Positions 29,009-46,052 of a DNA stretch of 64,000 bases are shown here, one piece after another. Origin of the DNA: Anaerohalosphaeraceae bacterium (GTDB lineage Bacteria; Planctomycetota; Phycisphaerae; Sedimentisphaerales; Anaerohalosphaeraceae); NCBI GenBank assembly GCA_037479115.1, contig JBBFLK010000016.1, positions 1-64,000 of the forward strand, written 5' to 3'. The notes beneath the pieces were generated by a model, which was given only the letters and a program-made list of their open reading frames with translations, did no database searches and was not told the DNA's origin. The position numbers were made by a program, and so were the translations under genes. Each line of letters begins with the position of its first letter. Position 1 is the first letter of the stretch.

Positions 29009-30430
29009 TCACGAATCACAGCGCCGGCATTCCATATCAAAGTACCGGCACGCATTCTGAAAACAAATATCCTCCACAATCCGGCCCAGCCAGTCGAAAT
29101 CCGGCGGCAGCAGTCCCTTTTCCACATCCGAGCCGAGGATATTGCACAGAATTCTACGAAAATACTCGTGTCGAGGAAAGGATAAAAAACTCCTCGAATC
29201 GGTTAACATCCCAACAAATCGGCTTAAAAGTCCCATATTAGAGAGGGCCTCTATCTGCTTTTCAATCCCGTCTTTCTGGTCCAGAAACCACCACGCCGAA
29301 CCGTATTGAAGTTTTCCCGGACAGGACCCATCCTGGAAATTGCCGATCATCGTGGCCATCAGTTCATTGTCCCGCGGATTCAGATTGTACAGAATCGTCT
29401 TGGGCAGCAGGTCTTCGCGGTTCAGACGGTCCAGAAAGGCCGCCAGCGGACGGGCAATTTCAAAATCCCCGATGGAATCACAGCCGGTATCGGCTCCCAG
29501 CCGCTTCATAATCTTGCTGTTGGTGTTGCGCAAAGCCCCCAGATGCAGCTGAAGCACCCAGCCGGCCTGGGCATCCATCACCGCCATATCATACAAAAGG
29601 GCCGATTTGTACTGAAGCAGCTCGGTTTCGTTCAGCGTCTGTCCGGCCCGCAGTTTTGAAAAGGCCGTTTCGACCTCCCGCCGCGTGTAGGGCGCTGCAT
29701 ACACCGTTTCCAGCCCGTAATCCGACAGCCGGCATCCGTTGGCGTGGAATTCATCATGACGCTTATGCAGGGCCTCCAGCAGATTTGAATACGTGCGAAT
29801 CTCTATGCCGGAAACCTTTTGCAGCCCGTCCAGCCACTGATTCAAAAAACCGGGATTCTCCGCCGCCAGCGCCTTGTCCGGCCGCCAGGCCGTATGCACA
29901 AAAATCTCAAAGCCGTCCTGTCGGATACGCTGATGCCACTCCAAAGAATCCAGCGGGTCCTCCGTCGTACAGAGCACCTGAACGTTCATCTTCCGCAGCA
30001 GGTTGCGGATGCTGAATTCCGGCATCTTGAGCAGGTCGCTGCAGGCCTCATAAATCCGCTCGGCCGTCTCCGGCCCCAGCAGCCGGTCAATCCCGAAATA
30101 CCGCTTCAGCTCCAGATGCGTCCAGTGATACAGGGGATTGCGGAGGGTATAAGGCACGGTGGCCGCCCAGGCGGAAAACTTCTCCCAATCCGACGCCGAA
30201 CCGGTAATCCGCTCTTCCGGAATGCCGTTGGTCCGCATCGCCCGCCATTTGTAATGGTCTCCTTTGAGCCAGGCCTGCGTGAGATTCTCAAAGCAGCTAT
30301 CCTCGGCAATCAGCCGTACCGGCAGATGGCAATGGTAATCATAAATCGGCATCTTTTCGGCGTATTCGTGATACAGCCGCGACGCCGCCTTGGTTTCCAG
30401 CAGAAAATCCTCGTGAATAAACGGTCGCAT
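29009..30430 (-). CDS. uxaC: Glucuronate (uronate) isomerase
   Basis: 473 residues. YDYHCHLPVRLIAE holds the metal His pair. The other blocks, LLRKMNVQVLCTTEDPLDSL and LTDSRSFLSFPRHEYFRRIL, are typical of UxaC. It isomerises D-glucuronate to D-fructuronate and D-galacturonate to D-tagaturonate in the cytosol. It is followed immediately by dctPQM, making an uptake-plus-first-step module. 242 bases with a repeat element separate it from gnd upstream. Confidence 0.96.
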   Translation of the reverse strand: MRPFIHEDFLLETKAASRLYHEYAEKMPIYDYHCHLPVRLIAEDSCFENLTQAWLKGDHYKWRAMRTNGIPEERITGSASDWEKFSAWAATVPYTLRNPLYHWTHLELKRYFGIDRLLGPETAERIYEACSDLLKMPEFSIRNLLRKMNVQVLCTTEDPLDSLEWHQRIRQDGFEIFVHTAWRPDKALAAENPGFLNQWLDGLQKVSGIEIRTYSNLLEALHKRHDEFHANGCRLSDYGLETVYAAPYTRREVETAFSKLRAGQTLNETELLQYKSALLYDMAVMDAQAGWVLQLHLGALRNTNSKIMKRLGADTGCDSIGDFEIARPLAAFLDRLNREDLLPKTILYNLNPRDNELMATMIGNFQDGSCPGKLQYGSAWWFLDQKDGIEKQIEALSNMGLLSRFVGMLTDSRSFLSFPRHEYFRRILCNILGSDVEKGLLPPDFDWLGRIVEDICFQNACRYFDMECRRCDS

Positions 30431-30541
30431 CGCCGCTTCCTTTCCCAGTTCTACTCTGCCTCTAACAAATCTCTGCCCTTCCCGGCTAAGTCATTTTACC
30501 AAAGGTCTCTTGTCAGGCCCGGCTTGGTCGCTTCAGCGCCA

Positions 30542-30648
30542 GCCGTTTGCCGTCAATTGCTTGTTGTCAATCGCTTGCTGCCAGCTCTTTGCTGTCGGCC
30601 GTTTTCTGTCAATTGTTTGCTGTCATTCCCGCGAAGGCGGGAATCCAG
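30542..30648 (+). repeat. Tandem array plus palindrome (element 1)
   Basis: Degenerate units of about 14-15 bases built on GCTTGTTGTCAATC run from about 30542. They end in the palindrome ATTCCCGC, loop GAAG, GCGGGAAT (30625-30644). The repeat unit carries the same GTCA that flanks the palindrome. The rest of the 30431-30672 gap shows nothing else. Confidence 0.7.
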
Positions 30649-30672
30649 ACCCTTCACCACAGCCGAAAGTTT

Positions 30673-32124
30673 CTACACCACATAGGTCGAAGCGGAAGTT
30701 TCGCCGCCCCGTCCCGTCCAGTTCGTATGGAAGTACTGCCCGCGCGGACGGTCCACCCGCTCGTACGTGTGCGCGCCGAAGTAATCCCGCTGGGCCTGCA
30801 GCAGGTTGGCCGGCAGACGCTCGCTGCGGTATCCGTCATAGAACGCCAGGGCGCTGCCCATCGCCGGAACCGGAATCCCCATCTGGACCGCCATTGTAAC
30901 CACCCGTCGCCAGCTGGCCTGGCCTTTCTGGACCGCATCCGCAAAGAACGGGTCCAGCAGCAGATTCGACAGATTCGGATTGCGGTCAAACGCCTCCTTA
31001 ATCTTGCCCAAAAAGACCGACCGAATGATGCAGCCGCCCCGCCACATCAGGGCAATTCCGCCGTAGTTCAGATTCCACTTGTATTCCGCCGCCGCCGCCC
31101 GCATCAGCTGATACCCCTGCGCATAACTGACAATCTTGGAGGCGTACAGGGCCTTGCGCAAATCATCAATCATCTGTTTCTTATCGCCCGTAAAGGCCGC
31201 CTGAGGCCCCTTGAGCACCTTGGAAGCAGCTACACGCTCCTCCTTCAGGGCCGACAGACACCGCGCAAAGACCGCTTCTCCAATCAGCGTCAGCGGCTGG
31301 CCGGTATCCAGCGCCGCAATCACCGTCCATTTGCCCGTTCCCTTCTGGCCCGCCGCATCCAGAATCAAATCCAGCACATACTTGCCCTCTTCGTCCTTGT
31401 ACGCCAGGATGTCTCGGGTAATTTCAATCAGATAGGAATTCAGCTCCCCCTCGTACCATTCAGCGAAGACCTTATGCATTTCCTCGTTGGTCATTCCCAG
31501 GCCGTCCTTCATCAGATGATAGGTCTCGCAAATCATCTGCATATCGCCGTACTCGATGCCGTTGTGCACCATCTTGACGAAATGGCCGGCTCCGTTTTCC
31601 CCCACCCAGTCGCAGCACGGCTCGCCCTTGTCCGTCTTGGCGGCAATCTTCTGGAAAATCGGCTTGACATGCGGCCAGGCTGCCGGCGAACCGCCCGGCA
31701 TAATCGACGGACCCCGCAGCGCCCCTTCCTCGCCGCCGGATACACCTGTCCCGATGTACAGCTTGCCCTTGCTTTCGACATACTGCGTTCGGCGAATCGT
31801 ATCCGGGAAGTGGCTGTTCCCGCCGTCAATCAGGATGTCCCCGTCTTCCAGATGCGGCAGAAGCTGCTCGATGAACTCATCCACCGGCTTGCCCGCCTTG
31901 ACCATCATCATAATTTTGCGGGGCTTCTTCAAGACCTTCACCAGCTCCTCAATTGAATGGCAGCCGATGATATTCTTGCCCTTCGCCCGGCCGGCCAGAA
32001 AGGCGTCCACCTTTTCCACCGTCCGGTTGTAGCAGGCCACCGTAAAGCCCTTGCTTTCCATATTCAGAATCAGATTTTCCCCCATCACCGCCAGTCCGAT
32101 TAAGCCGATATCCGCCTGTGCCAT
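30673..32124 (-). CDS. gnd: 6-phosphogluconate dehydrogenase, decarboxylating
   Basis: 483 residues. GLIGLAVMGENLILNMESKG binds NADP. ILIDGGNSHFPDT, HFVKMVHNGIEYGDMQMICE (active Lys) and GTGKWTVIAALDTGQP are the substrate and catalytic blocks of the long (about 470) Gnd class. It turns 6-phosphogluconate into ribulose 5-phosphate, CO2 and NADPH. Placement inside an uronate operon rather than with zwf is unusual. It suggests that gluconate is made by this operon (see the LarA-family gene). Confidence 0.97.
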   Translation of the reverse strand: MAQADIGLIGLAVMGENLILNMESKGFTVACYNRTVEKVDAFLAGRAKGKNIIGCHSIEELVKVLKKPRKIMMMVKAGKPVDEFIEQLLPHLEDGDILIDGGNSHFPDTIRRTQYVESKGKLYIGTGVSGGEEGALRGPSIMPGGSPAAWPHVKPIFQKIAAKTDKGEPCCDWVGENGAGHFVKMVHNGIEYGDMQMICETYHLMKDGLGMTNEEMHKVFAEWYEGELNSYLIEITRDILAYKDEEGKYVLDLILDAAGQKGTGKWTVIAALDTGQPLTLIGEAVFARCLSALKEERVAASKVLKGPQAAFTGDKKQMIDDLRKALYASKIVSYAQGYQLMRAAAAEYKWNLNYGGIALMWRGGCIIRSVFLGKIKEAFDRNPNLSNLLLDPFFADAVQKGQASWRRVVTMAVQMGIPVPAMGSALAFYDGYRSERLPANLLQAQRDYFGAHTYERVDRPRGQYFHTNWTGRGGETSASTYVV

Positions 32125-32156
32125 AGGTTCATCTCCCGTTTTTTAAGGTTTCTCTT

Positions 32157-33422
32157 TTACTGAAATCGTTCCCGATACGCCCAAAGCCCCAGCCCCGGAT
32201 TGGAAATGAAAAATACCTCTTCCCCGTCAATGCTGTGAAATCCGTCCGTCCGCTCAGCGGGCTTGTATTTCTTCATCATCTCATTCAAATCCCCCCACGC
32301 AAACCCCACGGATTCGATTTCTTTGCGGCTCAGTTTGCCCGGGCAGTACCGCACCAGAAAACGCCCCTCCGACGAGCCGTGTATCAGATGGGCCGCTGCG
32401 CTCAGATTGGCCTGCAAATCCTCATTCTCCGCCGTCAGGGCCAGGACCCGCTCTGTCCCGACATACCCGTACTTGCGAATCAGCCGGTCAATCTGAGCAT
32501 CCTCCCCAAATTCCACAAGCCCCGGCGCCAGAACAATCAGCTCCCCGCCGTCGGCCATCGCCATTCGTGTCCGGTAAATGCTCTTGTTGCCCAGCCAGGT
32601 ACTCTTGTATTCCTCCGGGTCCAGATAGACAACCGCTTTCTTCAGCGGCCGCTCGAGCATTGTAAAATTGACCTGCAGAGCCAGCCGGGCCGCCTGCAGG
32701 AAGCACTCCGTATCATCCCCAATAAAGAGTCCCCGCACTTTCGGTCGGCCGCCTCCTCCGTCCACCACCGTCAGCACATATACAATCGGCAGGTCCTTAA
32801 GAAAATGCTCCGAAGCATAATTCAGAACCCGCCGAACCGGCGTATCCGCACGGCCCATCATCCGCTCCATTCCATAAACCGCCCCGAGGAAATGACTTTT
32901 GTTGATGCCCTCCGAGCCGCCGGTGCCGACCAAAATATTCTTATTGTAATTGGCCATCCCCGTGACTTCGTGAGGCACCACCTGGCCAATTGAAAGAATC
33001 AGGTCATATCCGCCCTCCGGCAGCAGTCGGTCCACCTGGGCCGGCCAGTCGTAATCGACCTTTCCTTCGCTCACCTGACGAATGAACGATGCCGGCACCT
33101 TGCCCATCGTCACAATCCCGTTTCGCCAGTCGTGAACCCGGAACATCGACAGGGGCATCCCCGGATACATCTTTCGGATTTCCTCCGGCGTCATCGGCCG
33201 ATGTGTCCCGATAGCCGGCAGCACATCCGTCAAAGACGCCCCATAATAATCCCAGGCCATTTGGGTCAGAAGACCCGCCTGCGAATGCAGACGGGTGATA
33301 TCCGGCGGCACCGCCAGCACTTTTCGCCGGGGGCCCAACTGCTCCAAAGCCGCCAAAAGTCCCTCCCGCAACTGTTCAGGCGTCAATTCTTCCTGCGGAT
33401 TGCCGCGAGCATAATAGAGCAT
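32157..33422 (-). CDS. LarA-family (nickel-pincer racemase/epimerase-like) protein
   Basis: 421 residues of the LarA (DUF2088) family. LAVPPDITRLHSQAG matches the D-x-T-R substrate loop, AIGTHRPMT has the first catalytic His, and GQVVPHEVTGMANYNKN has the second His and the pincer-binding Lys region, followed by GINKSHFLG. Family members use a nickel-pincer nucleotide to invert C2 of 2-hydroxy acids; gluconate 2-epimerases are known in the superfamily. Between a fructuronate reductase and gnd, mannonate to gluconate is the obvious candidate reaction. No larB, larC or larE is in the window, so the cofactor must be made elsewhere. Confidence 0.85.
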   Translation of the reverse strand: MLYYARGNPQEELTPEQLREGLLAALEQLGPRRKVLAVPPDITRLHSQAGLLTQMAWDYYGASLTDVLPAIGTHRPMTPEEIRKMYPGMPLSMFRVHDWRNGIVTMGKVPASFIRQVSEGKVDYDWPAQVDRLLPEGGYDLILSIGQVVPHEVTGMANYNKNILVGTGGSEGINKSHFLGAVYGMERMMGRADTPVRRVLNYASEHFLKDLPIVYVLTVVDGGGGRPKVRGLFIGDDTECFLQAARLALQVNFTMLERPLKKAVVYLDPEEYKSTWLGNKSIYRTRMAMADGGELIVLAPGLVEFGEDAQIDRLIRKYGYVGTERVLALTAENEDLQANLSAAAHLIHGSSEGRFLVRYCPGKLSRKEIESVGFAWGDLNEMMKKYKPAERTDGFHSIDGEEVFFISNPGLGLWAYRERFQ

Positions 33423-33436
33423 ATTTCACCCAATCA

Positions 33437-34255
33437 TTAAACGCCGCTGAATGCATTAAAGCCGCCGTCAATCGGCACCACCACACCGGTCACAAAACGG
33501 GAGGCGTCGCTGATCAGCCAGCGGACGGTCCCGCACAGTTCCTCCGGACTGCCGAACCGTCCCATCGGGGTATGAGCAATAATCGTCTGTCCCCGCGGCG
33601 TCAGGGCCCCGGTCTTCTCATCCGTCAGCAAATACCGGTTCTGCTGCGTCAGGAAAAAGCCCGGCGCAATCGCATTCACGCGAATTTCCGGCGAGTAATT
33701 CTGGCACATATGCACCGCCAGCCATTCGGTAAAATTGCTCACCGCCGCCTTGGCCGCCGAGTAGCCCACCACTTTTGTCAGCGGACTAAATGCGCTCATG
33801 CTCGAAATATTCAGAATGACCCCCCTCTTTTCCTGAGCAAAATACCGCCCAAAAACCTGAGACGGCAGAAATGTCCCCATAAAATTCAACTCGAATACGG
33901 AGCGAAGCGCCTCCTCCGGCAGGTCAAAAAACGGCATCTGTTCCGAGGTAGTGGCTTCCTTTTTGTTGCCGCCGGCCCCGTTAATCAGCACATCCACCCG
34001 CCCCATCGTCTCTTTGGCACAGGAAAACGCCTCCTGAATCTCTTTTTTGTCCAGAACATTGATGCGAAGCGGCATCGCAAAATGCCCTTGCGATTCAATC
34101 TTTTGGGCCAGCTCCTTTGCGCGGAACTCATCATAATCCGCAATACAGACCTTTGCGCCGGCCGACGCCAAATCCTCCGCAATCGCCCCGCACAAAATCC
34201 CCGCCCCGCCGGTAATGACCACACATTTGCCCTTCACATCAAACCAATCCGCCAT
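33437..34255 (-). CDS. SDR oxidoreductase, probable fructuronate reductase (UxuB-like)
   Basis: 272 residues. VVITGGAGILCGAIAEDLAS is the NAD-binding loop, LINGAGGNKKEATT the nucleotide loop, and YSAAKAAVSNFTEWLAV has the catalytic Tyr-x3-Lys. The stretch FELNFMGTFLPSQVFGRYFA is typical of the SDR-type D-mannonate oxidoreductases found next to uronate genes (YjmF type). It would reduce fructuronate to mannonate. It is the first gene of the operon, 14 bases before the LarA gene, and is divergent from the ROK regulator. Confidence 0.83.
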   Translation of the reverse strand: MADWFDVKGKCVVITGGAGILCGAIAEDLASAGAKVCIADYDEFRAKELAQKIESQGHFAMPLRINVLDKKEIQEAFSCAKETMGRVDVLINGAGGNKKEATTSEQMPFFDLPEEALRSVFELNFMGTFLPSQVFGRYFAQEKRGVILNISSMSAFSPLTKVVGYSAAKAAVSNFTEWLAVHMCQNYSPEIRVNAIAPGFFLTQQNRYLLTDEKTGALTPRGQTIIAHTPMGRFGSPEELCGTVRWLISDASRFVTGVVVPIDGGFNAFSGV

Positions 34256-34273
34256 CGGCCGGACTCCTTACAC

Positions 34274-34439
34274 TTTTTTTTGCTTATTTTTTCTCGTTTT
34301 CGCTTATTTTTTCTCGTTTTTTGCCTATTTTTTCTCGTTTTCGCCTATTTTTTGTCGTTTTTTGCTTATTTTTCTCGTTTTTGCTTATTTTTTGTCGTTC
34401 CCGCCCTTTTTTTGTCGTTCCCGCGCAGGCGGGAACCCA
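34274..34439 (+). repeat. T-rich tandem array plus palindrome (element 2)
   Basis: Six to seven degenerate 19-21-base units based on GCTTATTTTTTCTCGTTTTC run from about 34274. The last ones gradually turn into GTCGTTCCCGCC and then the palindrome GTTCCCGC, loop GCAG, GCGGGAAC (34417-34436). ORFs reading through the array are artefacts of the repeat. It is in the 379-base divergent gap between the SDR and ROK genes. Confidence 0.72.
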
Positions 34440-34553
34440 AACCCTTCCAAATAAGTTCTGTCAACACTTTTTATCCTCAAAACTTGAGATTATTTTACGT
34501 CACGGCAGACAAAATTTGCAAGTTTTTTATTATTATTCTTATATCTTATTGTC

Positions 34554-34567
34554 GTAAAATATTTTAC
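34554..34567. promoter_or_regulatory. Palindromic operator candidate for the ROK regulator
   Basis: GTAAAATATTTTAC is a perfect 14-base palindrome, AT-rich in the centre as in NagC/Mlc-type sites. A related half site TTGAGATTATTTTAC lies about 65 bases upstream, and TTGAGATATTAT lies just before the ROK start. It is in the divergent region where a ROK protein would control both itself and the uronate operon. Confidence 0.5.
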
Positions 34568-34634
34568 AATCCACCTAAACAAACACCGCAGAAACCTTGA
34601 AAATACTCAAGAATTGAGATATTATAATTGTTCT

Positions 34635-35843
34635 ATGGAAAAAACCGCAATCAATTCGAAGGCGGCCGGCCGTCGAAACGAGAAAGTCGTACTCTCTCTT
34701 CTGGCCAGGCATGGCCCCCTGTCCCAGAGTCAAATCTGCGAAATGACTCATTTGGGCAGTTCCACGGTCAGCACCATCGTCAGCCGACTTCGGGACAAAG
34801 AGTGGATTCACGAAACCCCTCTTCCCAGCGGAAAACGCGGCGCCAAGCCTGTCCTGATCCGCATCAATCCCCAGGGGGGACATCTAATCGCCGCCGAAAT
34901 CAATCCGCACACGCTTCGACTCGGTCTGTTTGACTTCCACTGTCAGCTGACTGAACAAATCGCCATCGCTCTTGCTGGAGACCATTCTGTAGAGAATGTT
35001 CTGCGGCTGCTTGAAATCAACATTCGAGGGCTGGTCAGCAAAGCCGCCATCCGCCCCGACAGAATCCTCGGCATCGCCGTCACCCTCAGCGGCTCCATTA
35101 CCCCCGCCGGGGTCGTCGAACTGTCCAGCCCTCTCGGATGGAAATCGGTTCCTCTTCAGCGGCTCCTCCAAAGCCGTTTTGACTGGCCGGTGGAAATCTA
35201 CTCCACCAAAGTGCGGCTTTTGGCGGAAATCCGCCTTCAGCCCTCGCTCCAGTCCAAAAACATTATCTATTTCAATATCGCCGACGGCGTCGGATCCACC
35301 CTCTTAATAGACGGCAAACTCCTGTACGGAGCCACCCGGCGAAGCGGAGAAATCGGGCACATCACGGTAATGCCCGACGGCCCTTTGTGCGGCTGCGGAC
35401 ACAAGGGCTGCCTGGAGGCCCTGATTTCCGGACCCGCCGTCCTGCGAAAAATGCGGCAGGAACTCGCCGAAGGAGGCTCCTCTCTTCTGCACCAGCGGCT
35501 CCCCGCTCTCCGCTCTCCGGAGCAGGCCGTTGAAGAGCTGGCCTGGGCCGCTGAAAAACAGGACCCTTATGCCCTGTCGGTTCGGGATTTTATCGCCGAC
35601 CGCCTCTGTTACGCCGCGGCCGCCGCCGTCAACCTCTTCGACCCGGATGTGCTGATTCTCGCCGGCTATGTCAGCCAGCCCTTTCTCCCTTATTTCACAC
35701 AACGCCTTCAGGACTACTTTGTCGAACACGTCTATGATTTTGCATCCAGAACCATCGAAATCATCCCCGCCCGCGCCGGCAAAGAAGCCCTCATTCAGGG
35801 GGCTGCCGCCGCCCTCTTTCAAAATGCGATTGCCCCCGCCTGA
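34635..35843 (+). CDS. ROK-family transcriptional regulator
   Basis: 402 residues from ATG 34635 (a TTG at 34614 is also in frame). Residues about 15-75 form a winged helix: VVLSLLARHGPLSQSQICEM then STVSTIVSRLRD. The rest is a ROK sugar-kinase fold with GLVSKAAIRPDRILGIAV and the zinc motif CGCGHKGCLEAL. In ROK kinases an Asn-Asp pair follows the catalytic strand; here the segment is IYSTKVRLLAEIRLQ, so catalysis is unlikely. It is divergent from the uronate operon and is its likely repressor, sensing a sugar acid or its derivative. Confidence 0.86.
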   Translation: MEKTAINSKAAGRRNEKVVLSLLARHGPLSQSQICEMTHLGSSTVSTIVSRLRDKEWIHETPLPSGKRGAKPVLIRINPQGGHLIAAEINPHTLRLGLFDFHCQLTEQIAIALAGDHSVENVLRLLEINIRGLVSKAAIRPDRILGIAVTLSGSITPAGVVELSSPLGWKSVPLQRLLQSRFDWPVEIYSTKVRLLAEIRLQPSLQSKNIIYFNIADGVGSTLLIDGKLLYGATRRSGEIGHITVMPDGPLCGCGHKGCLEALISGPAVLRKMRQELAEGGSSLLHQRLPALRSPEQAVEELAWAAEKQDPYALSVRDFIADRLCYAAAAAVNLFDPDVLILAGYVSQPFLPYFTQRLQDYFVEHVYDFASRTIEIIPARAGKEALIQGAAAALFQNAIAPA

Positions 35844-36357: not shown

Positions 36358-36570
36358 ATCCAGTATGGTTTGATTTTATCAGACCTCGTGAAATCCCGGA
36401 CACGTCGTTCCGGAAAAGTCCTGGATTCTCTTCGTCCTTTTTCCGTTAACCCCCGCAGTTTTTCGCCCCATCCTCACACAAGTTGTTCTTTTTGCACAAC
36501 TCCTGCTTAAGCCCTCTTTCTCTTTATCCGAATTGAATGCCAAAGGTCTAAATCCCTTTTGCAAACAAAG

Positions 36571-36578
36571 ACCGATAA
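36571..36578 (+). promoter_or_regulatory. Possible sigma-28-like -10 element before cheW
   Basis: ACCGATAA matches GCCGATAA at 7 of 8 positions. A TAAA lies 18 bases upstream (36549-36552), 3 bases further than the usual flagellar spacing. Weak, but fitting for a chemotaxis operon. The remaining 36358-36603 gap has an AGTTGT...ACAACT inverted repeat near 36481 and no gene. Confidence 0.28.
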
Positions 36579-36603
36579 CCTAAAGCCAGTTAGGAGTCAA
36601 ACT

Positions 36604-37116
36604 ATGACAACGGCCGTACAGGAAACAACCGCAAGAAAAAACGGTGCTCAGGAAGGCAAGTACCTGACCTTCGCTCTCGGAAAAGAAGAATACGGGCTGG
36701 AAATCCTGAAAGTGCGGGAAATCATCGGCTATATGAACATTACCGCCGTCCCCCGCACACCGGAATTCGTCAAAGGCGTCATCAACCTGCGCGGACAGGT
36801 TATTCCGGTCATTGACCTGCGTCTGCGGTTCGGGATGGACGCCGCCGAAGTCACCGACCAGACCTGCATCATCGTGGCGGAAATCAACCAGAACGGCAAA
36901 ACCTTCAACGCCGGCCTGATTGTGGACCGCGTCCAGGAAGTGCTCGACATCGCCGCCGAAGACATCGAGGAATCCTCACATCTGGGGACCGCCGTCCAGA
37001 CCGATTTTATTCTGGGCATCGGAAAGGTCGGCTCCTCCATCAAGATTCTGCTGGACATCGACCAGGTCCTCGGCAGCGTCCGCCTCAGCGAATCCGCCGA
37101 AACCGCTTCCGAGTAA
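36604..37116 (+). CDS. cheW: Chemotaxis coupling protein
   Basis: 170 residues from ATG 36604 with TTAGGAG upstream. FALGKEEYGLEILKVREIIG and VKGVINLRGQVIPVIDLRLR are the classic CheW SH3-like subdomain motifs, and GLIVDRVQEVLDI follows. It links the receptor to CheA at the membrane array. It is the first gene of the che operon, 78 bases before mcp. The N-terminal 20 residues are extra and polar. Confidence 0.96.
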   Translation: MTTAVQETTARKNGAQEGKYLTFALGKEEYGLEILKVREIIGYMNITAVPRTPEFVKGVINLRGQVIPVIDLRLRFGMDAAEVTDQTCIIVAEINQNGKTFNAGLIVDRVQEVLDIAAEDIEESSHLGTAVQTDFILGIGKVGSSIKILLDIDQVLGSVRLSESAETASE

Positions 37117-37194
37117 ACCATGCAGATACGATTAAAAATAAAAATGTATGAACAGCATTGAAGTCCAACTCCAATCTGAACAAAGGAGATGAGT

Positions 37195-39285
37195 ATGCTG
37201 AAAAATCTGACCTTAAAGGCCAGACTGCTCACCTGCGGACTGATTTTAACGCTTGGGCCGATTTTGGTCATTCTGGCCATTGTGAGCATCCAGAACCGGC
37301 GGATGACAAACGTGGCCGATGAAGAAAGTACAAAAATGGCCTATAACGACCTGGACCACCTGGCTCAGCACATCTACAACATGCTCCAGGTCGAGCAGAT
37401 GTCCATCCAGGAAAATATTAACCAGGCCCTTCGGGTCGCCCGGGATATCTTCCATCAGACAGGCGCCATACGGCTGGATGAGTCGACCGTCACCTGGCAG
37501 GCCGTCAATCAGTTCAGCCAGAACACCCAGACCGTCACCCTGCCCAAATTGATGGTCGGCGACACCTGGCTGGGCCAGAACACCAGCCGCCAGGTTCCCT
37601 CTCCGATTGTTGATAAGGTCAAAGACCTCATGGGCGTCACCTGCACCATCTTCCAGCGGATGAATGAACAGGGCGACATGCTGCGGGTCTGCACCAATGT
37701 CGAAAAGGCTGACGGCACCCGCGCCATCGGCACCTTCATCCCCAGAATCCAGCCGGACGGAACCCCCAACCCCGTCGTCGCTGCCCTGCTCGAGGGCCGC
37801 CGATATGAAGGAAGGGCCTTTGTCGTGGACCGATGGTACATCACGGCCTATGAACCCCTCTATGACGCACAGAAAAAGGTTATCGGGGCCCTGTATGTCG
37901 GAATCCCCCAGGAACGCTGCACGAATATCCGGCAGGCAATTCTGAAAACCGTTGTCGGCAAGACCGGCTACGTCTTTGTGCTGGACTCCAAAGGCAGCTA
38001 CATCATTTCCAAAGACGGCAAACGTGACGGGGAAAACATCGCGAATGCCAAGGATGCCAACGGCGTGCTTTTCATCCAGGAAATCTGCAAAAAAGCCCTT
38101 GCCTCCAAACCCGGCGAAATCACCGAACAGCGCTATCCCTGGCAAAACCCGGATGAACCCGCCCCGCGGGAAAAAATCGCCCGCATCGTGTATTTCCAGC
38201 CCTGGGACTGGGTTATCGGCGTCAGTTCCTATCTGGATGAGTTCTATGAATCCAGTGCCCGGCTTCGTTCAATCGGCCGTGCTTCCATGATTCAAATCGG
38301 TATCCTGGCAGCTGTTTCTTCAGCCCTCTGCCTTCTGATTTGGTTCTTCGTTTCGCATAAGCTTACAAACCGGCTGACCGAAGTCGCCGAACAAATCCTC
38401 ACGGGCGTCCGGCAGGTCTCCGACGCTTCCGGACAGGTGGCATCGGCCTCCCAGACCCTCGCACAGGGAACGACTGAACAGGCCGCCGGCCTGGAGGAAA
38501 CATCTTCCTCGCTCGAAGAGATGGCCGCCATGACCAAACAGAATGCCGACAACGCCGCTCAGGCCGCTACCCTGGCCTCCGGTGCACAGCAGGCCGCCGA
38601 CAACGGCGCCAAGGCCATGCAGAAAATGCTGACGGCTATTGAGGAAATCCAGAAAAGTTCCGACGAAACGGCCAAGATTATCAAAGTCATCGATGAAATC
38701 GCCTTCCAGACCAATCTGCTGGCCTTAAATGCCGCCGTGGAAGCCGCACGAGCCGGAGAAGCCGGAAAGGGTTTTGCCGTCGTCGCTGAAGAAGTCCGCA
38801 ACCTGGCGATTCGGTCCTCAGAAGCGGCGGAAAAAACCGCAGAGCTGATTGAACAGTCTGTCAAAAACGCCAAAAACGGTGTTCAAATCTCCAACGAAGT
38901 CAAAACCGCTCTCGACCAGATTGTCAGCGGCATCGGAAAAACGTCGGCTCTGGTCAATGAAATCGCCGCCGCCTGCAAAGAACAGGCCCAGGGAATCGAA
39001 CAGATTAACTCGGCGGTTTCCCAGATGGACAAGGTCACTCAGCAGAACGCCGCCGGAGCGGAAGAAGCCGCCAGTGCCGCTGAGGAACTGGCCTCACAGG
39101 CTGAATCGATGAAACAGACGGTCTGGCAGCTCCAAACCCTCGTCCGCGGCGGGTCGGAAGCAACCCCCCAACAGGCCGCAGCCGGACAGCTGTCTTTGTC
39201 CAACCAAATCTTTCATCAGATTGCAGAGGGCTCAAATACCCCTCCGACAAGCAGGAATTTCTCTCGTTTTACAAACCATAAATAA
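37195..39285 (+). CDS. Methyl-accepting chemotaxis protein with Cache sensor
   Basis: 696 residues from ATG 37195 (AAGGAG upstream). TM1 is about 12-32. Residues about 35-360 form a large periplasmic sensor of the Cache type, with [20 protein letters not shown] and [20 protein letters not shown] being typical. TM2 (about 365-385, [18 protein letters not shown]) is followed by a HAMP-like linker and the signalling hairpin [20 protein letters not shown] with the E-A-G-K-G tip. There is no C-terminal pentapeptide for CheR tethering. The ligand is unknown; a small carboxylate would suit the nearby metabolism. Confidence 0.93.
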
Positions 39286-39296
39286 GGAGTTTGTCT

Positions 39297-39671
39297 ATGC
39301 CAAAGTCACTGATGATAGTCGATGATTCGGCCACGATGCGGAAAATCATCATGCGCACCGTCCGAATGTCCGGCCTCGAATTCGACCGGACCGAAGAAGC
39401 CGGAAACGGAGCCGAGGCGATTGAAAAACTGAAGGCCTCACCGGTGGACATCGTCCTGTGCGACATCAACATGCCGGAAATGCCCGGCACAGAGATGGTC
39501 AAACAGGCCCGCCAGCTGCCCAACTGTCAGAACACCAAAATTATTATGGTTTCTACGGAAAGTGCTCAGGATTTGATTAACAGTGTCCTGGCCAGCGGCG
39601 CCAACGGCTACATCACCAAACCCTTTACACCGGAAAAGTTTCAGGAACAGCTGGCTCCGTTCATGAGCTGA
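39297..39671 (+). CDS. cheY: CheY-type response regulator
   Basis: 124 residues, single receiver domain, from ATG 39297 (AAGGAG 7 bases upstream; TTG 39291 is in frame). LMIVDDSATMRK has the acidic pair, CDINMPEMPG the phosphorylation Asp 56, and the late GYITKPFTPEKF the Lys. It receives phosphate from CheA and would bind the motor or another output. Operon position directly after mcp. Confidence 0.94.
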   Translation: MPKSLMIVDDSATMRKIIMRTVRMSGLEFDRTEEAGNGAEAIEKLKASPVDIVLCDINMPEMPGTEMVKQARQLPNCQNTKIIMVSTESAQDLINSVLASGANGYITKPFTPEKFQEQLAPFMS

Positions 39672-39702: not shown

Positions 39703-40176
39703 ATGATCGAACAGAAAACCTACCACGAAATTGTACTCGATGCCGCCAAAGAAGTATTTGAAACGATGATTTTTATGGAAATCGAGCCGTCCGCTCAGGC
39801 GTCTATCGATGAATCCGCCCTGTCTCTGCTTGGAACCATCACCTTCAAAGGCGACATCGAAGGATGCATGGGCATCAACCTGTCCTGGCCCTGCGGACAA
39901 ACCATCGCCCGCAACATGCTGGCCCTCGAGCCGGATGCAGAGGTCTCTCAGCAGGAAGTCTGCGATGCCGTCGGCGAAGTGGCCAATATGGTCATGGGAA
40001 GCATCAAAAGCCGCCTGCAGGATATGTATCCGGATATCGCCGTCTCCATTCCGACCGTAGTCACCGGCAGAGAATTGAACAGCAACCTCGGCGAAGGCGC
40101 AGAAAAAGTAGCCGTGCCCGTCTGCCTGAATGAAGAGTTTACGGCTGTATTTATTCTTTTGTATCGAAGAAAATAA
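39703..40176 (+). CDS. cheX: CheX-type CheY-phosphate phosphatase
   Basis: 157 residues. The family motif Asp-x3-Glu-x2-Asn is present as DAVGEVANM (Asp 88, Glu 92, Asn 95), followed about 22 residues later by the conserved Pro (SIPT). The strand GTITFKGDIEGCMGINL precedes it. CheX removes phosphate from CheY, and the Glu and Asn do the chemistry. It is 31 bases after cheY, so both would be made together. Confidence 0.88.
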   Translation: MIEQKTYHEIVLDAAKEVFETMIFMEIEPSAQASIDESALSLLGTITFKGDIEGCMGINLSWPCGQTIARNMLALEPDAEVSQQEVCDAVGEVANMVMGSIKSRLQDMYPDIAVSIPTVVTGRELNSNLGEGAEKVAVPVCLNEEFTAVFILLYRRK

Positions 40177-40207: not shown

Positions 40208-41536
40208 ATGACAGAACCAACCGTCCAATCCGTCCCGCTTGAAACGATTCTGCCGCAGGTCAGCACTCTGTCTATGCAGACATTCTGCGAAGACATGGAC
40301 GGAATGCTCGGCATCTCCATCAGCTGCGCGCTCTGTCAGGCCGCCCCGGGAACCCTCGACAGACTCAAACCCTTCTTCCCCAAATTCGCCGCCGTCTATT
40401 CCATCAAAGCGCAGGGGACACTGAGCGGACGCTTTGACCTGCTCCTCGATAAAAATGCCCTGTTCCTGCTGTCCGGAACCATTGTCATGCTGCCGGAGGC
40501 CAAAATCAAAGAGCAGTGCAAACAGGGCACCCTCGAGCAGGCCCTCAAACTCAGCGACACCATTAAGGAAATCGGCAATCTGACCGTCGGCGCCTGGGAC
40601 CGAATCTTCCGTGAACATCTTCCCGGACACAAACACCTGCTCCAGACCAACACCCAGATTCTCAATCCCTGGGACAAACCCGCCGAAGTCTTCGGATTCA
40701 AAGAAGACACGCCCTGTCTGCTGGTCGTGTGGGAAATGACCGTCGGCGACTATCCGCCCTTCCATGGAGCCGCCGTCTTCCCGGCTGCTCTTTTTGAGCC
40801 GCCCAAAGAGGAACCGGCTCCGGCGGAAGCCCCCGCACAAACCCCGGCGGAATCCGCCGCAGCTCCTGCGGCCGCCCCTGCACAGCCCGAGCCGGCTGCA
40901 AGCCAGCCGCCGCAAACCCCCGAACCCGCCGCAGCCGCACCGGTCTGTCCGCAAACTCAGGAATCAACCGAACCCCATCCGGTCTGGAATGCCATTCAGC
41001 AGATGGTCCAGTCTGCCCCGGATGGAAGGTCCGCCGCCCCGCTGGACGCCGCTGTTCTGAACTGCCCGGCCCGGCTCTTTATGAATCCAAAACCCCTCTG
41101 GCTGTCTCCAAACGACTCCGTCGAAACCGCCCGCCAGCGGATGCAGCAAAACAATACCCGGTACGCTCTGATTGAAGAAAAGGACCAACTCGTCGGCATC
41201 CTGTCTCAGGGGGATGTCAATGCGGCCCTCAGCCCGTACCTCCGCTCTCCTTTTGAGGAGTATCGACGCCCCCTCGATGAGGCCTCTTTGCAGATACGCA
41301 TCCGATGGTTCATGAGCCGGCCCGTCCATACGGCCTCACCGGATACACCGATGTGGAAAATAATGGATCTCATGTGCCGTCATCAAATCCGCGCCGTCCC
41401 CATTCAGGACGCCGGCGGGACCGTTACCGGTCTGGTAACCGTCATGGAAATCTTTCAAACCCTGCTCAAAACGCTGTCCGGCGGCTCTCCCGCCGCTCAG
41501 CCGGAAGCCACAAAGGACTGTACAAAAACGGATTGA
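40208..41536 (+). CDS. CheX/CheC-like domain fused to a CBS pair
   Basis: 442 residues from ATG 40208. Residues 1-195 are a CheX/CheC-like region in which DTIKEIGNLTVGAW gives Asp 117, Glu 121 and Asn 124, the Asp-x3-Glu-x2-Asn phosphatase pattern. About 200-275 is a Pro/Ala-rich linker (EEPAPAEAPAQTPAE). About 290-425 holds two CBS motifs: RQRMQQNNTRYALIEEKDQL then GILSQGDVNA, and HQIRAVPIQDAGGTVTGLVT. CBS pairs bind adenine nucleotides. The fusion would let energy charge tune CheY dephosphorylation. I do not know of this arrangement. It lies two bases before cheA. Confidence 0.6.
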   Translation: MTEPTVQSVPLETILPQVSTLSMQTFCEDMDGMLGISISCALCQAAPGTLDRLKPFFPKFAAVYSIKAQGTLSGRFDLLLDKNALFLLSGTIVMLPEAKIKEQCKQGTLEQALKLSDTIKEIGNLTVGAWDRIFREHLPGHKHLLQTNTQILNPWDKPAEVFGFKEDTPCLLVVWEMTVGDYPPFHGAAVFPAALFEPPKEEPAPAEAPAQTPAESAAAPAAAPAQPEPAASQPPQTPEPAAAAPVCPQTQESTEPHPVWNAIQQMVQSAPDGRSAAPLDAAVLNCPARLFMNPKPLWLSPNDSVETARQRMQQNNTRYALIEEKDQLVGILSQGDVNAALSPYLRSPFEEYRRPLDEASLQIRIRWFMSRPVHTASPDTPMWKIMDLMCRHQIRAVPIQDAGGTVTGLVTVMEIFQTLLKTLSGGSPAAQPEATKDCTKTD

Positions 41537-41537
41537 A

Positions 41538-43625
41538 ATGCTTATGGAAAAGACAGTGAATATCACAGAACTGATTGAACAGGCCGCCGGCAAGCTCCCC
41601 CTGCTGGACCCGCAGGATACCCGCGACATCGAGGAAATCGCCGGCGTCTTCAAACAAATCGAAGAAGCCGTCAAAGCCCTCAGCGGCTGGGAGGAGTCCT
41701 CCCGGCTTCAGGTGCAATCCCTGGCCCATCTGGGAGCCGAACAGATTGAAAAACTGCTCCGACAGGAAATCCAGTCCTCCGAGCAGGTTCTTCAGGAGCT
41801 CACAAAGGCCGTCAGTCAGCTGCAGACTCTGACACAGTCCCTTTCTTCTGCATCCGGTGCTGCAGCCGCTCCGACGTCCACGGCCGCTCCGACGGAAACA
41901 TCGGAGTTCCCACCGACTGTCATCGCCCCCGACGATGCCCCGCTCGTTCAGGATTTCCTCAACGAATCCCGCGAACATCTCGAATCCGCGGAAACAGCGC
42001 TTTTGAGTCTCGAAGCCGACCCAACCAACACGGAAACGCTCAATCAGATCTTCCGCGGCTTCCATACCATCAAAGGCATGGCCGGCTTCCTGAACCTGAC
42101 GGCCATTAATCGGCTGGCTCACGTATCCGAAAATCTGCTCGACCGCGCCCGCAAAGGCACCCTCACGATGTCCGGAGCCGCCAGCAACCTGGCCTTCGGC
42201 TCCATCGACATGCTCAAAACCATGCTCAAAGACCTCGAAGCGGGCCTGGCTCAAAATCAGCCGATCCCCGCTCCCAATGACCTGCCGGCCCTGATTCAGA
42301 AAATCCAGGACTGTGTCGAAGGCAGACTCCAGGCGGAGCCGGCACCCGTCCCGGCCGATGTCGCTCAGGACAGACAGCTCGAACCCATTCTTCAGCCCGA
42401 ATCCCAGACCCAAACCGCCGTCTCCTCATCCGCCGCAGTCTCCTCCGCCGCTCGCGAAACCATCAAAGTCAGCACCAAACGGCTGGACGACCTGATCAAC
42501 ATGACCGGGGAACTGGCCGTCGCTCAGCTGATGATTTCTGAAGAGGTCAGCAAAACCTGCCACACCGACAGCGACCTCTACCGAAAAGTCGCCAGCCAGT
42601 CCAAAATCGTCCGCGACCTGCAGGAATTGTCGATGTCCATGCGGATGATTCCGATGCAGGGCGCCTTTCAGAAAATGGCCCGCCTGGTCCGCGACCTGTC
42701 CCAAAAGGCCGGAAAACCCATCAATTTCCAGACCTCCGGCGAAGAAACCGAGCTGGACCGCACCATCGTGGACAAGATTACCGACCCGCTGATTCATATG
42801 GTGCGAAACTCCATCGACCACGGCATCGAACCGCCGGAGGAGCGAGTCAAAAAAGGCAAATCCCCTCAGGGGCTGCTGCGACTGTCGGCCTACCATCAGG
42901 CCGGCAGCATTGTCATCGAAATCGAGGATGACGGCCGCGGGTTGAACGCCGAAAAAATCCGCAAAAAAGCCCTCGAAAAAGGGCTGATTTCCGAACATCA
43001 GGAACTGACGGAAGAAGAGCTGCTGAATCTGATTTTCAAACCCGGCTTTTCCACCGCCGACAAGGTCACCGAAATCTCCGGCCGAGGCGTCGGAATGGAT
43101 GTGGTCAAGAAAAACATCGACGCCCTCAACGGAAAAATCGAAATGAAAACCGCGCCGGACAAAGGAACAATCTTTTCGCTCCGGCTTCCTTTAACGCTGG
43201 CCATTATCGACGGACAAATCGTCACCATCGGCTCCCAGCGGTATATCATCCCGATCAATTCGGTCATTCAGAGCCTGCGGCCGACCCCGGACCAGATTTC
43301 CACGATTCGAAACCGCTCCAAAGTCGTGATGATTCGTGGACAGCTTCACCCGCTCATTCCGCTCTACAAGCTCTTCCGCATCTCTGGTGCGGTGGAAGAA
43401 CCCGAACAAGCCCTTCTGGTAGTCGTCGGAGAAGGCAGCCGACGATGCTGCCTGCAGGTCGATGACCTGCTCGGCCAGCAGCAGGTCGTTATTAAATCCC
43501 TTCGCGGATTGGGCAAAATCAAAGGCGTTTCCGGCGGTGCCATTATGGGCGACGGCCAAATCAGCTTGATTCTCGACGTACCGGGGCTCCTCGAATTGGC
43601 CCAGGACCCCGATGCAAATCTGTGA
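41538..43625 (+). CDS. cheA: Chemotaxis sensor histidine kinase CheA
   Basis: 695 residues (ATG 41544 is also possible). Residues 1-130 are a helical and Pro/Thr/Ala-rich lead with no recognised domain. The HPt domain follows with FHTIKGMAGFL (phospho-His 176). Then comes IKVSTKRLDDLINMTGELAV as the P3 dimer helix, LIHMVRNSIDHGIEPPEERV as the N box, and GRGVGMDVVKKNI as the G box. The C-terminal CheW-like domain has the block PLTLAIIDGQIVTIG. No P2 (CheY-binding) domain is evident between the HPt and P3. Usual CheA enzymes begin with the HPt, so the lead is unusual. Confidence 0.94.
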   Translation: MLMEKTVNITELIEQAAGKLPLLDPQDTRDIEEIAGVFKQIEEAVKALSGWEESSRLQVQSLAHLGAEQIEKLLRQEIQSSEQVLQELTKAVSQLQTLTQSLSSASGAAAAPTSTAAPTETSEFPPTVIAPDDAPLVQDFLNESREHLESAETALLSLEADPTNTETLNQIFRGFHTIKGMAGFLNLTAINRLAHVSENLLDRARKGTLTMSGAASNLAFGSIDMLKTMLKDLEAGLAQNQPIPAPNDLPALIQKIQDCVEGRLQAEPAPVPADVAQDRQLEPILQPESQTQTAVSSSAAVSSAARETIKVSTKRLDDLINMTGELAVAQLMISEEVSKTCHTDSDLYRKVASQSKIVRDLQELSMSMRMIPMQGAFQKMARLVRDLSQKAGKPINFQTSGEETELDRTIVDKITDPLIHMVRNSIDHGIEPPEERVKKGKSPQGLLRLSAYHQAGSIVIEIEDDGRGLNAEKIRKKALEKGLISEHQELTEEELLNLIFKPGFSTADKVTEISGRGVGMDVVKKNIDALNGKIEMKTAPDKGTIFSLRLPLTLAIIDGQIVTIGSQRYIIPINSVIQSLRPTPDQISTIRNRSKVVMIRGQLHPLIPLYKLFRISGAVEEPEQALLVVVGEGSRRCCLQVDDLLGQQQVVIKSLRGLGKIKGVSGGAIMGDGQISLILDVPGLLELAQDPDANL

Positions 43626-43634
43626 GGTGAGCCT

Positions 43635-44488
43635 ATGACTTTAATCCAGCCTATCTTGGACGAATTGGTTCTGACGGATGAGCAGTTTGCACGGATTTGC
43701 CGAATGGTTTATGAGCACTGCGGCATCAATCTCCACGAGGGCAAAAAGGAGCTCGTCCGCGCCCGCCTGGCCAAAATGCTTCGAAAATACCATATGAAAT
43801 CCTACGACGAATACATCGATTTCGTCCTGCAGGATGTCGGCGGAAAAACGTTCTACGAAATGATCGACCAAATCAGCACCAACCTGACCAGTTTTTTCCG
43901 CGAACCCAAACACTTTGAATACCTCACACAGAAGTTTCTGCCGGAACTGATTGCCAAAAAGCAGAAAATCGGCCGCCTCCGAATCCGCGCCTGGAGCGCT
44001 GGATGTTCCTCCGGCGAAGAACCTTATTCGATGGCCATCACCCTGCTCGAATCCCTCCCCAAAAATCAGACCTGGGATGTGCGGATTCTGGCCACGGATA
44101 TCTCTACACGCGTCCTTCAGACGGCTCAGCAGGGGCTCTACGAAGCCCAGCGTGTCGCTGCCGTCTCCGCCGACCTCAAACGACGCTACTTAATCCCGCG
44201 AAAAGAAAGAAACGGAGAGATGTACTACGAAGTCGCCTCTGCTGCCCGAAACATTCTTACGTTCAAGTACCTGAACCTGATGGACCCCTGGCCGTTTCGA
44301 GGCCCTTTTGATTTCATCTTCTGCCGAAATGTAATGATTTACTTTGACAAACCTACCCAAGAAAAACTCGTCAACCGTTTCTGGGATATCCTCGATGTCG
44401 ACGGGCATTTCTTCACCGGCCATTCCGAGTCCCTGACCGGAATCCGCCATTCCTTCTCTTACGTACAGCCGACTATCTATAGGAAACA

Positions 44489-44492
<4 letters not shown>
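43635..44492 (+). CDS. cheR: Chemotaxis methyltransferase CheR
   Basis: 285 residues. The N-terminal helical domain (CRMVYEHCGINLHEGKKELV) is followed by the SAM fold with RIRAWSAGCSSGEEPYSMAI, LATDISTRVLQTAQQGLYEA and DFIFCRNVMIYFDKPTQEKL. It methylates receptor glutamates. It starts 9 bases after cheA and overlaps cheD by 4 bases. The receptor here has no pentapeptide, so tethering is probably not used. Confidence 0.96.

Positions 44493-46052
<1,560 letters not shown>

Follow-up and report, generated by a model that had tools for sequence, protein, structure and literature searches.

The che operon in the 64,000-nucleotide stretch of contig JBBFLK010000016.1 that was analyzed (hereafter the window) encodes a 442-residue protein that consists of two folded parts, an N-terminal domain of the CheC/FliY/CheX fold and a C-terminal pair of CBS domains, which are joined by a disordered Pro/Ala linker. 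We propose, with a confidence that stops just short of even, that this fusion gives the operon a second phosphatase for CheY-P, of the CheC type, which is tuned by the binding of adenine nucleotide to its tethered CBS pair. The fold, the active-site residues, the exact motif of CBS1, the distribution of the family and its linkage to the operon were all computed, and the tethering of a CheC-type domain to CBS domains suggests that the swimming signal may be linked to the energy state in these bacteria.

The fusion gene (40,208 to 41,536, plus strand) starts with the ATG at 40,208 and ends with the stop codon at 41,534 to 41,536. The reading frame is supported by full-length orthologs in many genomes, and the ortholog starts coincide with this ATG, which shows that the frame and start of the original prediction were right. 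The gene lies in a complete che operon, whose members from CheW to CheB were matched by Pfam, in agreement with the setting that had been recognized from the sequence. On the same strand, the operon contains cheW (36,559 to 37,116; PF01584), a chemoreceptor gene with a Cache_3-Cache_2 sensor (37,189 to 39,285; PF17201 and PF00015), cheY (39,291 to 39,671; PF00072, E 2.3e-26), cheX (39,703 to 40,176), the fusion gene, cheA directly 3' of it (41,538 to 43,625; Hpt, H-kinase_dim, HATPase_c and CheW domains), cheR (43,635 to 44,492; PF01739), cheD (44,489 to 44,989; PF03975) and cheB (45,003 to 46,052; PF01339 and PF00072). The listed open reading frame of cheB starts at 44,898, and the in-frame ATG at 45,003 is the likelier start. 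The CheX is an ordinary paralogous phosphatase (PF13690, E 1e-18), as had been described; its gene ends 31 bases before the fusion gene and is thus the immediate upstream neighbor, not the next-to-previous gene. In the source genome, searches identified FliG and two FliM/FliN-type genes, and found neither CheZ nor a second CheC beyond the fusion. Upstream of the operon, positions 29,009 to 35,843 of the window resemble a sugar-acid catabolism cluster, with putative genes for uronate isomerase-like, 6-phosphogluconate dehydrogenase-like, LarA-like and SDR proteins and a ROK regulator.

A full-length structural model built from a 28-sequence ortholog alignment contained two confident domains, residues 8-197 and about 276-423. 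Modeled alone with AF2 from 67 sequences, the N-terminal domain (residues 8-197; 40,229 to 40,798, plus strand) reached a pLDDT of 94.5 and a pTM of 0.90, and its top Foldseek match in the PDB was FliY of Thermotoga maritima (4hyn, E 1.1e-11). In VIA-align comparisons with the PDB, the Z scores were 17-20 for FliM (best 19.8), 18.0 for FliY, 14-16 for CheC and 11-12 for CheX and CheX-sized CheC-like proteins. All 27 entries with Z >11 among the matches listed were FliM, FliY, CheC or CheX; only these four exceeded Z 5, and the next unrelated entry was at 4.3. A search of the PDB with the domain profile had returned 4hyn as the sole match, a weak one (E 0.038) that was superseded by the fold searches. 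The length of the domain is also of the CheC/FliM/FliY type. By its modeled fold, the domain is thus a member of the CheC/CheX/FliY superfamily (Pfam clan CheC-like), and with fold and active site taken together the models make it almost certainly CheC-type.

In the window protein itself, Pfam recognizes the CBS pair alone; it gave no CheX or CheC match, and the protein was not filed as a CheX because its score falls under the PF13690 cut-off. When searched singly, 16 of 30 orthologs matched Pfam CheX (best E 1.1e-5), and comparison of the domain profile with that of the CheX proteins encoded alongside the fusions gave an E of 1.5e-4 at a probability of just 51.5. The relation of the N-terminal half to CheX and CheC is therefore seen through orthologs, profiles and structure. 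Of the checks suggested with the original prediction, the HMM search thus succeeded for the CBS domains and for about half of the orthologs and failed for the N-terminal half of the window protein itself, while structure prediction returned the CheC/FliY/CheX fold. The predicted CheY-phosphatase-like character holds for the fold and its E-x-x-N, and does not hold as a specific likeness to CheX, for which Z is about 12 compared with 16-20 for FliM, FliY and CheC. These fold scores, together with a quick tree in which the two are separated with a support of 99, rule out that the domain is a duplicate CheX; the sequences instead indicate that it is a separate CheC-like family, distinct from the neighboring CheX.

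The predicted catalytic helix segment, D117-xxx-E121-xx-N124 (40,556 to 40,579, plus strand), was located by conservation and by alignment to CheX. Asp117, Glu121 and Asn124, which had been noticed for their CheC/CheX spacing, lie within SDTIKEIGNLTVGAWDRIF and are in register with D88, E92 and N95 of the neighboring CheX in the profile comparison. E121 and N124 are each kept in 64 of the 67 N-terminal domains and D117 in 62, which excludes a chance origin of the site. Once non-CBS relatives with 13-18% identity are aligned, M94, P96, E121 and N124 are the sole invariant positions. CheC carries two ExxN sites; inspection of the fusion sequence found no E-x-x-N in helix 11-34. A Pro following the catalytic Asn is part of the CheC/CheX motif, and it is present in the neighboring CheX and absent from the fusion domain, a difference that weighs against the phosphatase reading. 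CheX, CheC and FliY use an Asn to orient the attacking water and an acidic residue as partner of the receiver lysine (PMC3035606). Of 56 che-linked copies, 55 retain both E121 and N124, compared with 8 of 11 copies for which no che neighbor was found (Fisher p 0.012, a value that ignores kinship; L094 and L099 are closely related, and several of the unlinked loci are short contigs). In the three unlinked copies in which a catalytic E or N has been replaced, positions 117, 121 and 124 read G, E and T (L093) or N, D and K (L094 and L099). Judging from the conserved sequence of its site, the fusion is probably an active phosphatase.

The predicted Pro/Ala linker was borne out by the model: residues about 198-256 are Pro/Ala-rich with pLDDT mostly <50, the disordered linker proper covers residues 201-256 (40,808 to 40,975, plus strand), and the interdomain spacing in orthologs ranges from ~47 to 357 residues. 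Such a disordered linker of variable length makes a fixed interdomain coupling, or simple intramolecular allostery, less likely. Beyond it, the CBS pair spans residues about 286-423, and its two motifs, which had been read from the sequence, gave a PF00571 score of 64.4 bits over 2 stretches against a cut-off of 24, or 40.5 and 31.3 bits singly. CBS1 (residues 291-341; 41,078 to 41,230, plus strand) contains an exact G-h-h-S/T-x-x-D/N sequence, G330-I-L-S333-Q-G-D336, and CBS2 (41,309 to 41,464, plus strand) contains G408-L-V-T411-x-x-E414, in which Glu replaces the Asp of 59 of 77 sequences, a deviation that counts against nucleotide tuning. The S/T at 333 is kept in 76/77 and the D/N at 336 in 71/77; the T/S at 411 is kept in 77/77, and D, E or N stands at 414 in 72/77. 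CBS pairs sense ATP, ADP or AMP in other proteins. In CBS pyrophosphatase, G-h-h-S/T-x-x-D/N has been described as binding ribose-phosphate (PMC11172384), and the Foldseek matches of the CBS half include AcuB with bound AMP/ADP, an energy charge sensor (PMC13121692). With these motifs, the CBS pair is likely to bind an adenine nucleotide. Between CBS1 and CBS2, residues 342-373 (41,231 to 41,326, plus strand) form a conserved segment with the consensus SPYLxxxFxxWRRPxDDATLQIxxxWxMSRPV, in which S342, Y344, F349, D357, A359 and W367 are each kept in at least 76 of 77 sequences; its near-invariance suggests a possible contact surface.

Planctomycetota MAGs yielded more than 60 orthologs with this fusion, and the MAGs named to class or order belong to Phycisphaerae or Sedimentisphaerales; a search of near relatives gave full-length matches throughout the order. 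When one genome per species was scanned, 75 loci emerged, nearly all labeled as Planctomycetota, Phycisphaerae or Sedimentisphaerales MAGs and one as Candidatus Kuenenia stuttgartiensis. Most of the orthologs have the gene order CheY-CheX-fusion-CheA-CheR-CheD-CheB. The fusion directly follows CheX in 54 of 67 cases and directly precedes CheA in 37 of 67, with many loci ending at a contig edge; L108 has no CheX upstream. In L091 (5959-7400), the phosphatase and CBS halves occupy two overlapping frames, which is probably an assembly frameshift. An additional CheX-like protein was observed in some che regions, either alone with about 150-157 residues or as the end of a 283-289-residue protein (L051:7472-7936, L095:8233-8703, L096:11782-12231, L109:5608-6078, and also in L054, L080, L097 and L115).

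We also considered whether the phosphatase domain had been lost from the che slot in L109 and L111, a notion that contig ends and repeats leave unsupported. L109 proves nothing on this point because it starts at a contig edge, and in L095, its nearest relative, the domain is present behind a long low-complexity stretch. In L111 (770-1999), an isolated case, a CBS protein without the phosphatase domain follows CheX directly, and this could be a real loss or an assembly collapse within repeats. The CBS module of the fusions is also found without a phosphatase domain, behind long, charged, coiled-coil-like repeats of the KAEAEEKA type, mostly far from che genes; these paralogs (L105, L110, L113, L114, L094:4427-5947 and L099:3437-5947) nest within the fusion tree. 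Thus, the CBS module is able to act alone, which counts against the proposed coupling.

With a widened N-domain profile, the family was found in 29 of 294 Planctomycetota genomes, often behind CheY and CheX. Its members lack a C-terminal partner in L139, L140, L146, L149 and L160, and carry a Pfam-confirmed receiver in L141-L144, L147, L148, L153 and L154 or a Pfam-confirmed FliN domain in L156, L157 and L159. In L137, L138, L150 and L161, the partner is a degenerate receiver. The latter architecture, which has no name, shows FDWCxRxK and NPAAH motifs and a best Pfam receiver E of 0.014, and it follows CheY and CheX where the flank is visible (L137 and L138). A quick tree placed the CBS fusions in one clade and the CheX proteins, without exception, in a second, each with a support of 99; the deeper branching order is uncertain because some branches are long. 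Given the single CBS clade and the relatives in the same slot with receiver or FliN tails, the C-terminal module looks exchangeable. These sequences suggest a single acquisition of the CBS tail, by a phosphatase-like protein that accompanies CheX and bears other tails in other lineages.

In the mechanism that we propose, catalysis, the ligand, the dimer, the coupling and its direction are what we infer. The N-terminal domain would offer E121 and N124 to CheY-P; as in CheX, E121 would pair with the receiver lysine and N124 would orient the attacking water. The CBS pair, very likely dimeric, would probably hold an adenine nucleotide at its two ribose-phosphate motifs, and this binding would alter the oligomeric state, partner binding or location of the tethered phosphatase, which would let a metabolic signal, for example energy charge, tune steering. 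The disordered linker of ~47 to 357 residues speaks more for control by dimerization, partner binding or placement than for a rigid switch. That the nucleotide controls the phosphatase is a tentative proposal whose chance we put somewhat below even. The most far-reaching reading, which we hold possible and on balance doubtful, is that a chemotaxis phosphatase is under direct adenine-nucleotide control, so that the lifetime of CheY-P would depend on energy charge at the level of the core che operon, without a receptor as intermediary, and that Planctomycetota have a CheC-type slot with a tail exchanged by lineage (receiver, FliN, CBS or none).

The presence of cheD in this operon and in most of the long loci points to another role, in which the N-terminal domain is mainly a CheC-like adaptor of CheD. 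As in Bacillus subtilis, the domain would then link the CheY-P level to the modification of receptors, phosphatase activity would be weak or incidental, and the CBS pair would tune the adaptation loop. Consistent with this reading, the CheD-binding role of B. subtilis CheC outweighs its phosphatase role (PMC3513319). The domain also has the length of CheC and a Z of 15.2 against the CheC of the CheC-CheD complex (2f9z), and the genome search found no other CheC to pair with CheD. A CheC-type partnership with CheD is thus a serious rival, which we nevertheless consider unlikely as the main role, given one ExxN site where CheC has two. Docking at the flagellar switch would fit the best structural match by Z, which is to FliM middle domains (19.8); FliM is not known to be a phosphatase, and this match counts against the phosphatase reading. 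FliN-tailed relatives in the phylum also fit a FliM/FliY-like docking domain without catalysis. Persistence of E121 and N124 at 13% identity, the lack of a FliN part in the CBS forms (in the window protein, Pfam found CBS and no FliN domain at the C-terminus) and the FliM/FliN-type genes of the genome itself make this very improbable.

The almost invariant segment between CBS1 and CBS2, which resembles a contact surface, the long disordered tether and the occurrence of the same module behind charged repeats without a phosphatase domain would all suit a CBS pair that serves assembly or localization, dimerizing the phosphatase or docking it on CheA, CheX or the motor, and that is not a ligand sensor. 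Assembly alone would not require the ribose-phosphate motif residues that are conserved in both halves, and we regard this role, the other main rival, as likewise improbable. A merger of two genes by assembly or gene calling is refuted, as over 60 independent MAG contigs carry the same fusion, nearly always in an uninterrupted frame. Among these readings, we keep the nucleotide-tuned CheC-type phosphatase as the working proposal.

The usual explanation of energy taxis invokes receptors that sense redox or proton motive force and act upstream of CheA. If our proposal is true, a nucleotide-reading module on a signal-terminating enzyme would constitute a second metabolic entry into chemotaxis, located in the core che operon of a large order of flagellated Planctomycetota that has received little study. 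A single phosphatase family with exchanged C-terminal modules would also provide natural variants for studying the control of CheY-P removal.

No CheC/CheX-CBS protein was found in the literature searched, in agreement with the original prediction; subscription journals were sparsely covered and an earlier mention is possible. Both halves are of known kinds and the novelty lies in their combination. With CheX (PF13690; 1xko and 1squ of T. maritima, 3hzh of Borrelia burgdorferi), the fusion shares the fold at a Z of about 12, a single D-xxx-E-xx-N in the second long helix and the same operons; its N-terminal domain of about 190 residues is, however, longer than the about 155 residues of CheX, falls in a separate clade (support 99) and bears the CBS tail. 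Compared with CheC of T. maritima (1xkr and 2f9z), domain length, fold (Z 15-16), ExxN and the cheD in the operon are alike, whereas the first helix of the fusion has no ExxN and the CBS tail is added. The likeness to T. maritima FliY (4hyn) amounts to 16% identity over 183 residues and a Z of 18, but the CBS pair takes the place of the FliN domain and the gene sits in a che operon. The CheC-like-receiver fusions of other Planctomycetota have the same N-domain family and the same slot after CheY and CheX and before CheA, and differ in having a C-terminal receiver instead of CBS domains. CBS pyrophosphatase and AcuB share the Bateman module with G-h-h-S/T-x-x-D/N, and adenine nucleotides control activity in those enzymes; their effectors are different and they have no link to chemotaxis, and the ligand proven there is predicted here. 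CheO of Campylobacter, considered as a precedent, is unrelated. The nearest described proteins are the CheA-CheC/CheX fusions of Leptospirae (PMC10782961), in which a CheC/CheX domain is likewise joined to a signaling part, although there the part is CheA and no CBS domain is present.
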